Positions 640-9,524 of a stretch of 40,095 bases of DNA are shown here, one piece after another. The position numbers and the translations under genes were made by a program. Source of the stretch: Mollicutes bacterium (GTDB lineage: Bacteria; Bacillota_I; Bacilli_A; RF39; UBA660); NCBI GenBank assembly GCA_012520055.1, contig JAAYPA010000029.1:1-40095 (forward strand), written 5' to 3'. Positions within the stretch are counted from its first letter, which is position 1, and every line of letters begins with the position of its first letter. The notes beneath the pieces were generated by a model. That model was given only the letters and a program-made list of their open reading frames with translations, did not search any database and was not told the origin of the DNA.

Positions 640-990
640 TCAATCTTGAGCTTTAAAGAATAAAGTCATGATAAAGGCAAATACGATAGCGGACACTATT
701 CCCGCACTTACCGGAACTAGTATCCCACTAAATAAACCTAATAAACCATCTTCAAGGTAACCACTATATGATCCGTTTAGTAAAAGATTACCAAAAGACA
801 TAATAGGAATATTTGCTCCTGCTCCTACTACTTTGACTATTTTATCATAAAAGCTACATACTCCTAAGACACTACCCAATACAACAAAAATAGTTGTTAT
901 ATGTCCCGGAGTAAAATTGGTATTATCTAAAATTATTTGACCTATTAAACATATAAAACCACAAAACAAAAATGAATATACTAAAGTCAT
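640..990 (-). CDS. spoVAE: Stage V sporulation protein AE (SpoVAE/SpoVAEb)
   Basis: 116 aa multi-TM protein, 'GAGANIPIMSFGNLL' motif, directly downstream of spoVAD. Confidence 0.88.
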   Translation of the reverse strand: MTLVYSFLFCGFICLIGQIILDNTNFTPGHITTIFVVLGSVLGVCSFYDKIVKVVGAGANIPIMSFGNLLLNGSYSGYLEDGLLGLFSGILVPVSAGIVSAIVFAFIMTLFFKAQD

Positions 991-1935
991 TTATACCACC
1001 TCCAAATAGATAGCATGACATATGGTTGGAACTGAATGTTTTTGATTAACTAAGACAGGACTGTGCAGTGATCCAGTTGCCAAACAAAGTATTTTTTTAT
1101 ACTTTTTATTATTAAAAATTCTTGTAACAAGTATAAGAGGTAATACTGCCGGTCCACTGGCTCCCGCATATTCAAAATCTTTATAAAATATTGCTCCGGC
1201 ATCTAGATGATTATTAATTTTAATATTATGTTCTTTTTTTAGAATCTCTTTAAATATTTCTGAACCGGTACTACCTAAATCTCCGGTTATTATTAAGTCA
1301 TAATCTTTTACTTCAGTTTTACTTTGATTTAAATAATCAACTAAGGTTGTAGCTGCTCCCGGAGCCATTATAGCTCCCATATTATGAACATCTTTAACAT
1401 AAGAATCAATTACTTTCCCCAATAAACCATTTACAACTTTTATTTTAGATGAAGTTTTCGATAATTTAATACCAACCGCTGCCGTAGCTGTAAAAGTACT
1501 TCGGTATGGTTTAGGAGCTCCATATTCGACTGGAAATCTGAATTGTTTTTCGGCAGCCAAATTATGAGAACTGGTTAAAAATATTCCTTCTCTTATAAAT
1601 TTTCCTTGAATAAAACCGGCTAAAGTAAGAAACGATGCAGACATTGTAGCACAAGCTGAGTATATTCCTAGTACCGGAATATTTTTATTAATTGTAGAGC
1701 TTCCTAAAGCTGTTAATTGATTAGTTAAATCTCCCCCAATAATTAATTCAGTATTAGAATTTACCAAATTATTTAAAACGGTCCTTTGCATCTTTATCTC
1801 CGCATCTTCCACGGTCTTTTCACCAAAGTAATAATCATCTATATACATGTCACATTTTTTTACATCATGTTCCTTCTCTAAAGGTCCAGCTACTATAAAA
1901 TAATCAGTTAAATAAACATCTTTAAAATTAAACAT
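991..1935 (-). CDS. spoVAD: Stage V sporulation protein AD (thiolase-fold)
   Basis: 314 aa; 'IYSACATMSASF', 'EYGAPKPYRSTFTATAA', 'DLIITGDLGSTG' typical of SpoVAD; operon context. Confidence 0.93.
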   Translation of the reverse strand: MFNFKDVYLTDYFIVAGPLEKEHDVKKCDMYIDDYYFGEKTVEDAEIKMQRTVLNNLVNSNTELIIGGDLTNQLTALGSSTINKNIPVLGIYSACATMSASFLTLAGFIQGKFIREGIFLTSSHNLAAEKQFRFPVEYGAPKPYRSTFTATAAVGIKLSKTSSKIKVVNGLLGKVIDSYVKDVHNMGAIMAPGAATTLVDYLNQSKTEVKDYDLIITGDLGSTGSEIFKEILKKEHNIKINNHLDAGAIFYKDFEYAGASGPAVLPLILVTRIFNNKKYKKILCLATGSLHSPVLVNQKHSVPTICHAIYLEVV

Positions 1936-2365
1936 AAATGATCACCTTTAGTATTGCTAAAAAGAAAGCTGCAATAATACCATATAATAAAATACAGCCG
2001 GCTAAACGAAATAAATAACCACCTAAGCCCGTAATTAATCCATCATTTTTATAATCAAGTGCACTACTTGTTATGGAATGGGCAAAACCGGTAATAGGCA
2101 CAATAAGTCCACATTTAAATTTCATAACAAGTTTATCAAAAAAACCTAAACCCGTAAAAAGACTTGCTAAAAAGATATAAATAATTAAAACCCAAGTTGT
2201 AGCTTCTTTAATCGGTATATGAGCCCATTTCACAATCAGACATTTTAAACCATCCGCTATAAAACCTAATGTTCCCCCCATTAAAAAAGCATTGAATGCA
2301 TTTTTCAATTTTTTCTCTTTAGGAGTAAATTTTTTAACCAGTTTTAAATATTCTTTTTTATTCAC
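1928..2365 (-). CDS. spoVAC: Stage V sporulation protein AC
   Basis: 145 aa membrane protein, 'GGTLGFIADGLK...FDKLVMKFKCGLIVPITGFAHSITSSALDYKNDGLITGLG'; overlaps spoVAD start. Confidence 0.93.
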   Translation of the reverse strand: MNKKEYLKLVKKFTPKEKKLKNAFNAFLMGGTLGFIADGLKCLIVKWAHIPIKEATTWVLIIYIFLASLFTGLGFFDKLVMKFKCGLIVPITGFAHSITSSALDYKNDGLITGLGGYLFRLAGCILLYGIIAAFFLAILKVIIYV

Positions 2366-2395: not shown

Positions 2396-3046
2396 TTAGG
2401 CAGCAATATACTCTTTGATCTTTTTCTTACACTTGTTTTCAAGTCTTGAAACCTTAACTTGACTAATTCCTAAAGCTTCGGCTGTTTCAGTTTGAGTTAA
2501 ATCTTGAAAATAACGATAATCAATTACCGATTGTTCTAAAGGATCTAACGTTTCTATAGAAGAACTGATTAATATTTGATCATCTATATTGTTTTCTACT
2601 CCAATCATATCGGAAATCTTAACTTCTCCGGTTAAGGTTTGATATTCATCTTCTAAGCTTAACATTGTACTTGTCATTGAAAAAGCATCATAAGCTAATC
2701 TTTCATCTATTTCCAAATATAAACAAATTTCTGTTAAACTGGGTATTCTATTTAATTTTTGCGTAAGCTCATTTTTCGCTTTTTCGATTTCTTTTGCAAT
2801 CTTTAAATACTGTTTATTGATTTTTATGTCTCTACTTTTGTTAGCAAGTTCATACATTTCTCCAAAAACATATTTATAAGCAAATGACATAAAATCAACA
2901 CCTAAATTTTCATTATATTTACGATATGCTTTAATAAGACCTATACAACCAGCTTGATATAAATCAGAAATTTCCACATTATAAAATTTTTTAGCTATTT
3001 TGTAAATAAATAATTCATACTGAACTACTGTTTCTTCTTCAGTCAT
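2396..3046 (-). CDS. sigF: RNA polymerase sporulation sigma factor, sigma F-like
   Basis: 216 aa sigma-70 family; 'DLYQAGCIGLIKA', C-terminal 'TQTETAEALGISQVKVSRLE' closely resembling B. subtilis SigF; upstream of spoVA genes as in B. subtilis. Confidence 0.85.
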   Translation of the reverse strand: MTEEETVVQYELFIYKIAKKFYNVEISDLYQAGCIGLIKAYRKYNENLGVDFMSFAYKYVFGEMYELANKSRDIKINKQYLKIAKEIEKAKNELTQKLNRIPSLTEICLYLEIDERLAYDAFSMTSTMLSLEDEYQTLTGEVKISDMIGVENNIDDQILISSSIETLDPLEQSVIDYRYFQDLTQTETAEALGISQVKVSRLENKCKKKIKEYIAA

Positions 3047-3054
3047 ATTATCAC

Positions 3055-3372
3055 CTATACTTGAATTAGCTTTAACGCTACTAATTCATTTTTCACTATT
3101 TTAAATTCACTATTTAGAGTTAGATTGGTATTACATATTAAGCCATCACCTTGATTTAATTTAGCAGCTTCTATTCCCTTTCTTAATGATTCTCTACCAT
3201 AATTATCAATTATTGTAACAGCGCCTAAATTGTAAACAATATATTTAATTCCTTGTTTGCTAATTACCGGAATTAAATAATTATCTAAACTTCTAACGGT
3301 ATCTTTAGTTAAATTACCTTTTAATCTAATAAACAAAACACCTTTACGAAATTCCATATTGATTTTTAACAT
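3055..3372 (-). CDS. spoIIAA: Anti-sigma factor antagonist (STAS domain), SpoIIAA-like, lacking the canonical phosphoserine
   Basis: 105 aa; aligns along its length with SpoIIAA (GVLFIRLKGNL...IKYIVYNLGAVTIIDNYG); the usual DSSG motif is DNYG. SigF ATG follows after 8 nt. Confidence 0.75.
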   Translation of the reverse strand: MLKINMEFRKGVLFIRLKGNLTKDTVRSLDNYLIPVISKQGIKYIVYNLGAVTIIDNYGRESLRKGIEAAKLNQGDGLICNTNLTLNSEFKIVKNELVALKLIQV

Positions 3373-3575
3373 AATCTTCCCTCACTTTTAATATAGGTTA
3401 GTAATAATACTTTTTAAACATCTTCGACAAAACCTCTATTTATTTACCGGTCTAATTATAGAGGTAATTGACATAATATTAACTATTTATATTAATACTG
3501 TTATAAAAACTTTGATGTTTTCTTTTTACTTTTTTTAATTATTGATAATTAAATTGTCAGTTTTAAACCTTTTAC

Positions 3576-8217: not shown

Positions 8218-8320
8218 AAAAGTACATTAGAGTTAGTTTGATTAAATAAGACATCTAAAAAAAGAACATATGAGAAATCATATGTTTTTTAATTTGGTAA
8301 AATATAAATGGAGGGAAGAA

Positions 8321-8659
8321 ATGAGAAAAACAAAAAAGCATAAAACTTATACAATTGATGAAAAAAATGAAATAGTAAGAGAATATTTAAATGGTAAAAC
8401 AAGAAGTTCAGAACTGATAAGACAATATGATATCGCTTCTTTTTCAGTTCTTCAAAGATGGATAATACAATATCAAAAATATGGTTCTGTTCAAGACAAT
8501 CGTGGGAAATCTTCTAAAGGAAAAGGTAATTATACTAGAAAGAAGAAACTAGTCCCAGAACAAATGTCTAGAGAAGAATTAATTGAATATGTAAAGGCGG
8601 TTGAGGATATAAAAAAAATAACTGTCTTCCTAAAACACCAAAAGAAAAATATCAAATAA
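8321..8659 (+). CDS. IS3-family transposase OrfA (HTH/helix-turn-helix protein)
   Basis: MRKTKKHKTYTIDEKNEIVREYLNGKTRSSELIRQYDIAS...VLQRWIIQYQKYG; ATG at 8321 has SD GGAGGG; A8 tract at 8601-8608 fits -1 frameshifting. Confidence 0.85.
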   Translation: MRKTKKHKTYTIDEKNEIVREYLNGKTRSSELIRQYDIASFSVLQRWIIQYQKYGSVQDNRGKSSKGKGNYTRKKKLVPEQMSREELIEYVKAVEDIKKITVFLKHQKKNIK

Positions 8660-9524
8660 TTGATATTCTAAAAAGTAAATATAATATTAATTTATTATGT
8701 TTAATACTTAAATGTTCAAGGAGTGGATACTATTTTTGGATAAATTTAGGAAGACCATTATACAAGAAATATGATGAAAGTATCGCCAAAATCATATTAG
8801 AACAATACTCAAAAGATAATAGACAAGGAATTAGGAGATTACGAATGAATATAAAAAAGATATATGGAATTAAGTTAACAAATTCTACCATATATCGCTA
8901 CATGAATATTCTGAATATAAGTTCAATCATTCGTAAGAAAAAGAATAAATACTCTAAAGTCAAACATCATAAAATACCTAACTTAATCAAACGTGATTTC
9001 AATGCCATACATCCTAATCAAAAATGGAGTATAGACATAACTTATATTCATACTAATTCTGGTGTCGAATATCTTTGTGCAATTAAAGATATGTACGACA
9101 AGAGTATTGTATCATATAATCAGTCAAAATTTATGGATAATAATTTATTTTATCAACTGTAAAGCATGCGATAGAAGCAGTCCCTTATAGTAAGAGAAAA
9201 GGATTAATTCTTCATTCAGATCAGGGCGTTCATTTTACGGGAATTCAATATGGATTATTATTAAAGCATAATAAAATAAGACGAAGTTGTTCTTATAAGG
9301 GAAGTTGTGTTGATAATGTACCAATAGAATCTTTCTTTAGTTCTTTGAAAACTGAGTGTTTATATCTTTACAAAAATATAACTAGAGAATTGTCTAGAAT
9401 ACTTGTAGATAACTACATTAAATATTATAATTATGATAGATTACAAGAAAAATTAAAAGAACTGACTCCGATTCAATATCGTCATCAATTCTCCCAATGT
9501 TCTTTTTTTAGATGTCTTATTTAA
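8595..9524 (+). pseudogene. IS3-family transposase OrfB (DDE integrase), frameshifted
   Basis: Frame 1: KCSRSGYYFW...QGIRRLRMNIKKIYGI...HPNQKWSIDITYI..., then stop TAA 9160-9162. Continues in another frame as STVKHAIEAVPYSKRKGLILHSDQGVHFTGIQYG...DNVPIESFFSSLKTECLYLYKN...CLI*. A 1-nt loss in the T-rich stretch near 9143-9153 explains it. Confidence 0.85.

Follow-up and report, generated by a model that had tools for sequence, protein, structure and literature searches.

Organization of the STAS-sigF locus

The analysed stretch of DNA (the window) is 40,095 nucleotides long and is contig C98 of a 1.19-Mb genome that is 72% complete. In the window, a gene for a STAS-domain protein is followed by a sigF homologue and then by spoVA genes (Table 1). 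This STAS-sigF-spoVA order is the one used here as a mark of SigF membership. The locus is best read as the spoIIA operon of an uncultured lineage of Bacilli, most likely of GTDB order RF39, family UBA660. All genomes of the family are uncultured MAGs, and the lineage is known here from its genes alone.

Table 1. Features of the STAS-sigF locus, with positions in the window
Feature	Position	Strand	Evidence
STAS protein, SpoIIAA-derived, 105 aa	3055..3372	-	profiles, alignment, predicted structure
Sigma F homologue, 216 aa	2396..3046	-	profiles, SigF tree, synteny
spoVAC	1928..2365	-	TIGR02838, E 2.3e-38; 3' of sigF in 54/73 family loci
spoVAD	991..1935	-	PF07451, E 4.6e-77
spoVAE (SpoVAEB type)	640..990	-	TIGR02839, E 2.9e-32
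Putative 0A box TTTTGTCGAA, Spo0A~P site of the STAS-sigF operon	3423..3432	-	family motif
Conserved TGTTTAAA element directly 3' of the 0A box, near the -35 location	3413..3420	-	aligned family promoters
-10-like element TATATT, 34 nt from the 0A core start	3390..3395	-	cTATAtT consensus of the family promoter alignment

The STAS stop codon and the sigma factor ATG are separated by 8 nt, so spoIIAB (approximately 440 nt) cannot fit between the two genes. The absence of spoIIAB from this position, first described in an earlier note on this DNA, is therefore confirmed. Its recurrence in 60 family loci shows that this order is not a chance arrangement.

These loci come from a set of 77 distinct sigF loci, obtained by searching 80 related genomes and by scanning named genomes. 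Upstream DNA is readable in 75 of them. A STAS gene lies directly 5' of sigF (STAS end within approximately 55 nt of the sigF match) in 60 of the 75, with no spoIIAB or HATPase gene, and the remaining 15 contain sigF alone, without STAS. Among the Bacillus and Clostridia controls, all 29 loci have the order STAS-SpoIIAB-SigF.

Phylogenetic placement of the sigma factor

In profile searches, the window sigma factor best matches TIGR02980 (SigB/F/G) and TIGR02885 (SigF), and the closest solved chain is SigF (1l0o_C). It contains sigma-70 regions 2, 3 and 4 and groups with SigF, not with SigG. The score against the TIGR02885 equivalog is 131.9 bits, below the curated cut-off of 321.45, as expected of a fast-evolving SigF member. 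In the maximum likelihood tree, the 77 sigF sequences of the lineage form a single clade (support 99) on the SigF side, separate from the SigG of the window genome. That SigG is encoded elsewhere, in an intact ftsA-ftsZ-spoIIGA-sigE-sigG cluster. The tree and the spoVA synteny together indicate that the window sigma factor is orthologous to SigF despite its sub-cut-off score. This placement with SigF, separate from the SigG of the same genome, answers the possibility, raised in the earlier note, that the sigma factor is not a SigF orthologue.

Two sequence traits of the family sigma factors were considered as marks of SpoIIAB loss. The family proteins are without approximately 30 residues at the N-terminus of Bacillus SigF (region 1.2). 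This trait was rejected because the SigF of Ruminococcaceae, which have SpoIIAB, is also short. The second trait is E149, the equivalent of E156 in SigG, where the substitution E156K renders SigG refractory to SpoIIAB (PMC3174212). The glutamate is kept in 89% of controls versus 18% of family sigF sequences. Its loss is suggestive at most, and the SigG of the window genome retains the glutamate.

The STAS protein and its phosphorylation site

The window STAS protein matches PF01740 above the cut-off (E 1.4e-8), and its closest solved relatives are SpoIIAA proteins, with an alignment that spans residues 2-83. The predicted fold has a pLDDT of 94, and its top structural matches are SpoIIAA proteins with TM scores of 0.86-0.89 (1tid_B, for example, at 0.89). 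The protein is thus a STAS domain with a SpoIIAA fold, although it scores 25.8 bits against the SpoIIAA equivalog TIGR02886, for which the curated cut-off is 114.75.

In the alignment to SpoIIAA, residues D56-N57-Y58-G59 of the window protein correspond to D56-S57-S58-G59. The phospho-acceptor Ser58 is replaced and both serines are gone, as the earlier note had read from the motif. Aligned at the same position, the STAS homologues of related genomes mostly lack the serine as well. Ser58 is present in 10 of 60 family sequences, and in the others residue 58 is Tyr (17 of 60), Lys, Ile, Ala, Val or another residue. The flanking positions are better kept, with D56 in 56 and G59 in 46 of the 60.

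In the three genomes with Ser58 that were checked, G041 (DSSG), G035 (DNSG) and G039 (DGSA), SpoIIAB and SpoIIE are nevertheless also absent. Because of these genomes, the kinase was probably lost before the serine. The proposed joint loss of kinase and serine therefore describes the window, but the 10 sequences that retain Ser58 do not allow a strict coupling of the two across the family. The suggested order is loss of the kinase and phosphatase first, of the serine next in most lineages and of the entire antagonist later in some.

There is only one STAS protein per family genome, with the sole exception of G121. In the window genome, this single protein is the one adjoining sigF, and no second SpoIIAA with Ser58 is found in the genome as far as it is assembled. 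In the two least saturated pairs within the genus, the dN/dS values of STAS are 0.07 and 0.16. These are in the range of sigF (0.10 and 0.11), which indicates that STAS is under purifying selection. The divergence of STAS also correlates with that of sigF beyond SpoVAC (partial r of 0.37 vs 0.05), and this co-divergence weakly fits a functional link.

On the sigF tree, STAS has been lost approximately ten times with sigF intact. The root-to-tip lengths of sigF do not differ between loci with and without STAS, with no faster evolution of sigF after the loss. These lineages do without STAS, which is thus dispensable there and not an obligatory partner.

Searches for SpoIIAB, SpoIIE and other regulators

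The genome survey covers 117 family genomes from 116 genera, 91 of them high-quality. With PF13581 (HATPase_c_2), no free-standing protein of SpoIIAB size is found in the window genome or in the 117 family genomes. Longer proteins do match, and a scan of the ten best shows them to be sensor histidine kinases or else HATPase_c proteins of at least 340 aa. Two shorter candidates for a hidden SpoIIAB were rejected: a 146-aa HATPase match in G035 (L034) comes from a frameshifted sensor kinase adjoining its response regulator, and a 195-aa frame in G021 is a histidine-kinase fragment. The identical search detects kinases of 140-160 aa in at least 9 of 12 class relatives, several of them directly 5' of sigF.

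For the SpoIIE-type PP2C domain (PF07228), a match above the cut-off is found in one of the 117 family genomes, G136, in a fusion protein. The earlier note had called for a genome-wide search for the SpoIIAB kinase and the SpoIIE phosphatase. Neither is found in the window genome, and the G136 fusion is the only such match in the family. SpoIIAB and SpoIIE are also not found in the congener G002, which is 95% complete compared with 72% for the window genome. Of the three proteins of the SpoIIAA-SpoIIAB-SpoIIE switch, only the STAS protein remains. The counter-case that the earlier note had set out, a spoIIAB elsewhere in the genome together with a second STAS protein that keeps Ser58, is not found in the window genome, where the one STAS gene adjoins sigF. 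Fin, a known anti-sigma-F factor, has no match above the cut-off in the family search.

The G136 fusion is a 619-aa membrane protein in which a SpoIIE-type PP2C is joined to HATPase_c_2 (contig C2, approximately 140000-143400; L031/L049). A 408-aa STAS-containing frame lies near it. The fusion looks like an RsbU/RsbW-like stress module and not like SpoIIE.

Much of the sporulation cascade is present in the same genomes. Spo0A is found in 108 of the 117 family genomes (89 of the 91 high-quality genomes) and SpoIIR in 101 (81 of 91). The window genome retains ftsZ-spoIIGA-sigE-sigG, spo0A, spoIIR, spoIID, sigF and spoVA.

A conserved promoter with a 0A box

The core TGTCGAA is located 57 nt 5' of the STAS ATG in the window. 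Of 75 family loci, 63 have it in the 250 nt upstream, compared with 1.1 expected (200 shuffles, maximum 5). It lies on the coding strand, in most cases 25-90 nt 5' of the start codon. In the loci without STAS, the core is also found upstream of sigF. When the family promoters are aligned on the core, the consensus is tTTTGTCGAA..tgTtTAAa, followed by cTATAtT approximately 34 nt from the core start. The extended motif at positions 3413-3431 of the window is the only exact copy in its genome. A SigH-like protein is encoded in 42 of 58 genomes, but the conserved -10-like element appears to resemble the sigma-A -10. The operon has the features of a Spo0A regulon member, as its promoter contains a 0A box and its genome encodes Spo0A, and binding of Spo0A is predicted from the sequence.

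Several loci (L087, L089, L090, L091, L103 and others) have two 0A cores, the second 26 nt farther upstream, which suggests tandem Spo0A boxes.

Regulation of sigma F

We lean towards the reading that this family has dismantled the SpoIIE-SpoIIAB-SpoIIAA partner switch, that Spo0A-driven transcription sets sigF and that STAS is an orphan accessory protein. The earlier note had suggested that the phospho-switch is gone and that sigma F is controlled differently. The negative searches for the kinase and SpoIIE, the single STAS protein and the grouping with SigF support that suggestion.

In such a system, no anti-sigma kinase would restrain sigma F any longer, and the level and timing of the sigma factor would be set mainly by Spo0A~P-driven transcription from the conserved 0A-box promoter. 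The STAS protein, derived from SpoIIAA, would no longer be open to phosphorylation at residue 58 in most members, and it may act with a putative partner in a role that is useful, non-essential and accessory. The approximately ten lineages without STAS would have discarded it, with a similar promoter now directly 5' of sigF.

Uncontrolled sigma F is harmful in B. subtilis, so a complete lack of post-translational control would be surprising. A family without SpoIIAB and SpoIIE must time or place spore development in another way. The predicted Spo0A-box promoter 5' of STAS-sigF is one obvious remaining control. The spoIIA operon of B. subtilis is also controlled by Spo0A, in the predivisional cell, and the promoter alone therefore does not account for compartment specificity.

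It is unlikely, in our judgement, that STAS has taken over from SpoIIAB by binding and regulating sigma F directly, as an anti-sigma factor, stabiliser or chaperone. The STAS gene lies directly 5' of sigF, overlapping it or a few dozen nucleotides away, and is under purifying selection though there is no SpoIIAB to bind. The structure predicted for the protein is intact, and its weak co-divergence with sigF also agrees with a direct role. The repeated losses, after which sigF persists without faster evolution, argue against such a role, and no STAS protein is known to us to inhibit a sigma factor directly. A conversion after kinase loss is similarly doubtful. In that case, the former anti-anti-sigma factor would have turned into a direct sigma F partner (an anti-sigma factor or activator), forming a phosphorylation-free STAS-sigma module that some lineages discarded.

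Dismantling of the switch also has to be weighed against continued regulation of sigma F by a kinase or anti-sigma factor that is non-homologous or has escaped recognition, for example a PknB/PrpC-type Ser/Thr kinase pair acting on another STAS residue or a small protein. At least one family member (L047) contains a gene pair identified from its sequence as a PknB-like kinase and a PrpC-like phosphatase, and the 10 STAS proteins with Ser58 would suit a kinase. Residue 58 is so variable across the family, however, that no single phospho-site is retained. The searches specific for SpoIIAB and SpoIIE are clean with working controls, and Fin is not found in the family search. In the loci without STAS, no common small gene adjoins sigF. 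These results make an unrecognised regulator improbable.

That the locus is a remnant of a decaying sporulation programme and regulates nothing is very improbable: the genomes are reduced (0.5-1.7 Mb) and spoIIR, STAS or sigF is without a match in some members, but Spo0A, SpoIIR, SigG and SigF are present in most members and both the promoter and the coding sequences are clearly constrained.

Comparison with known systems

Sigma F is the first compartment-specific regulator of the spore cascade. SpoIIAA, SpoIIAB and SpoIIE couple it to the asymmetric septum and are thereby the basis of the two-cell programme. As in the spoIIAA-spoIIAB-sigF operons of B. subtilis and other spore-formers, the family operon begins with a STAS gene, ends with sigF and has a Spo0A-type control region upstream. 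The sigma factor belongs to the SigF clade, and spoVA lies 3' of sigF in the window and most family loci (54 of 73), as it does in spore-former spoIIA loci. Unlike in B. subtilis, spoIIAB is missing, the phospho-serine of SpoIIAA is replaced in most members, SpoIIE is not found and the sigma factor is approximately 40 aa shorter, mostly at its N-terminus.

The genes spoIIAA, spoIIAB, sigF and spoIIE are listed among those of all spore-forming bacilli and clostridia (PMC3533761). The family resembles Candidatus Arthromitus in being reduced and host-associated with a minimal regulatory set (PMC3533761). The streamlined Candidatus Arthromitus retains SpoIIAA, SpoIIAB and SpoIIE (PMC3533761), unlike the present family, which is without SpoIIAB and SpoIIE. 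A large family that has Spo0A, SigF, SpoIIR and SigG (and in the window genome also SpoIIGA and SigE) but no SpoIIAB or SpoIIE breaks the rule of universal presence.

According to an earlier study, spoIIAB and spoIIE are reduced or absent in the order RF39, and a different regulation was predicted (PMC10868615). In its passages on the RF39 gene sets, that study does not mention an operon of STAS and sigF, a loss of Ser58, selection acting on STAS, its repeated loss or a 0A-box promoter (PMC10868615). No description of the operon form, the serine loss, the selection on STAS, its repeated loss or the conserved promoter was found in the open-licence papers searched. These uncultured, small-genome gut bacteria still carry most of the sporulation gene cascade. 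The long-standing question of which minimal circuit suffices for forespore-specific expression becomes testable, as does whether transcriptional control by Spo0A can replace the partner switch.

Other genes in the window and its genome

In the window genome and in G002, a gene for an Hpt-receiver protein and one for a hybrid histidine kinase lie directly 5' of spo0A (contig C115, L168:4049-7596; G002, L199:1743-5310). The hybrid kinase has the domains HisKA-HATPase-receiver and, together with the Hpt-receiver protein, makes up a complete phosphorelay. As a new control point for the family, the histidine kinase and Hpt pair was rejected: it is found beside spo0A in the window genus only and is absent in 19 other family genera. 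On contig C104 (L169) of the window genome, spoIID, a SpoIIQ-like M23 gene and spoIIR are located within approximately 20 kb of a dnaA-like gene. In the window itself, frames at positions 8270-9162 resemble orfA-like and integrase-like parts of an IS3/IS150-type transposase and may represent a broken insertion sequence.
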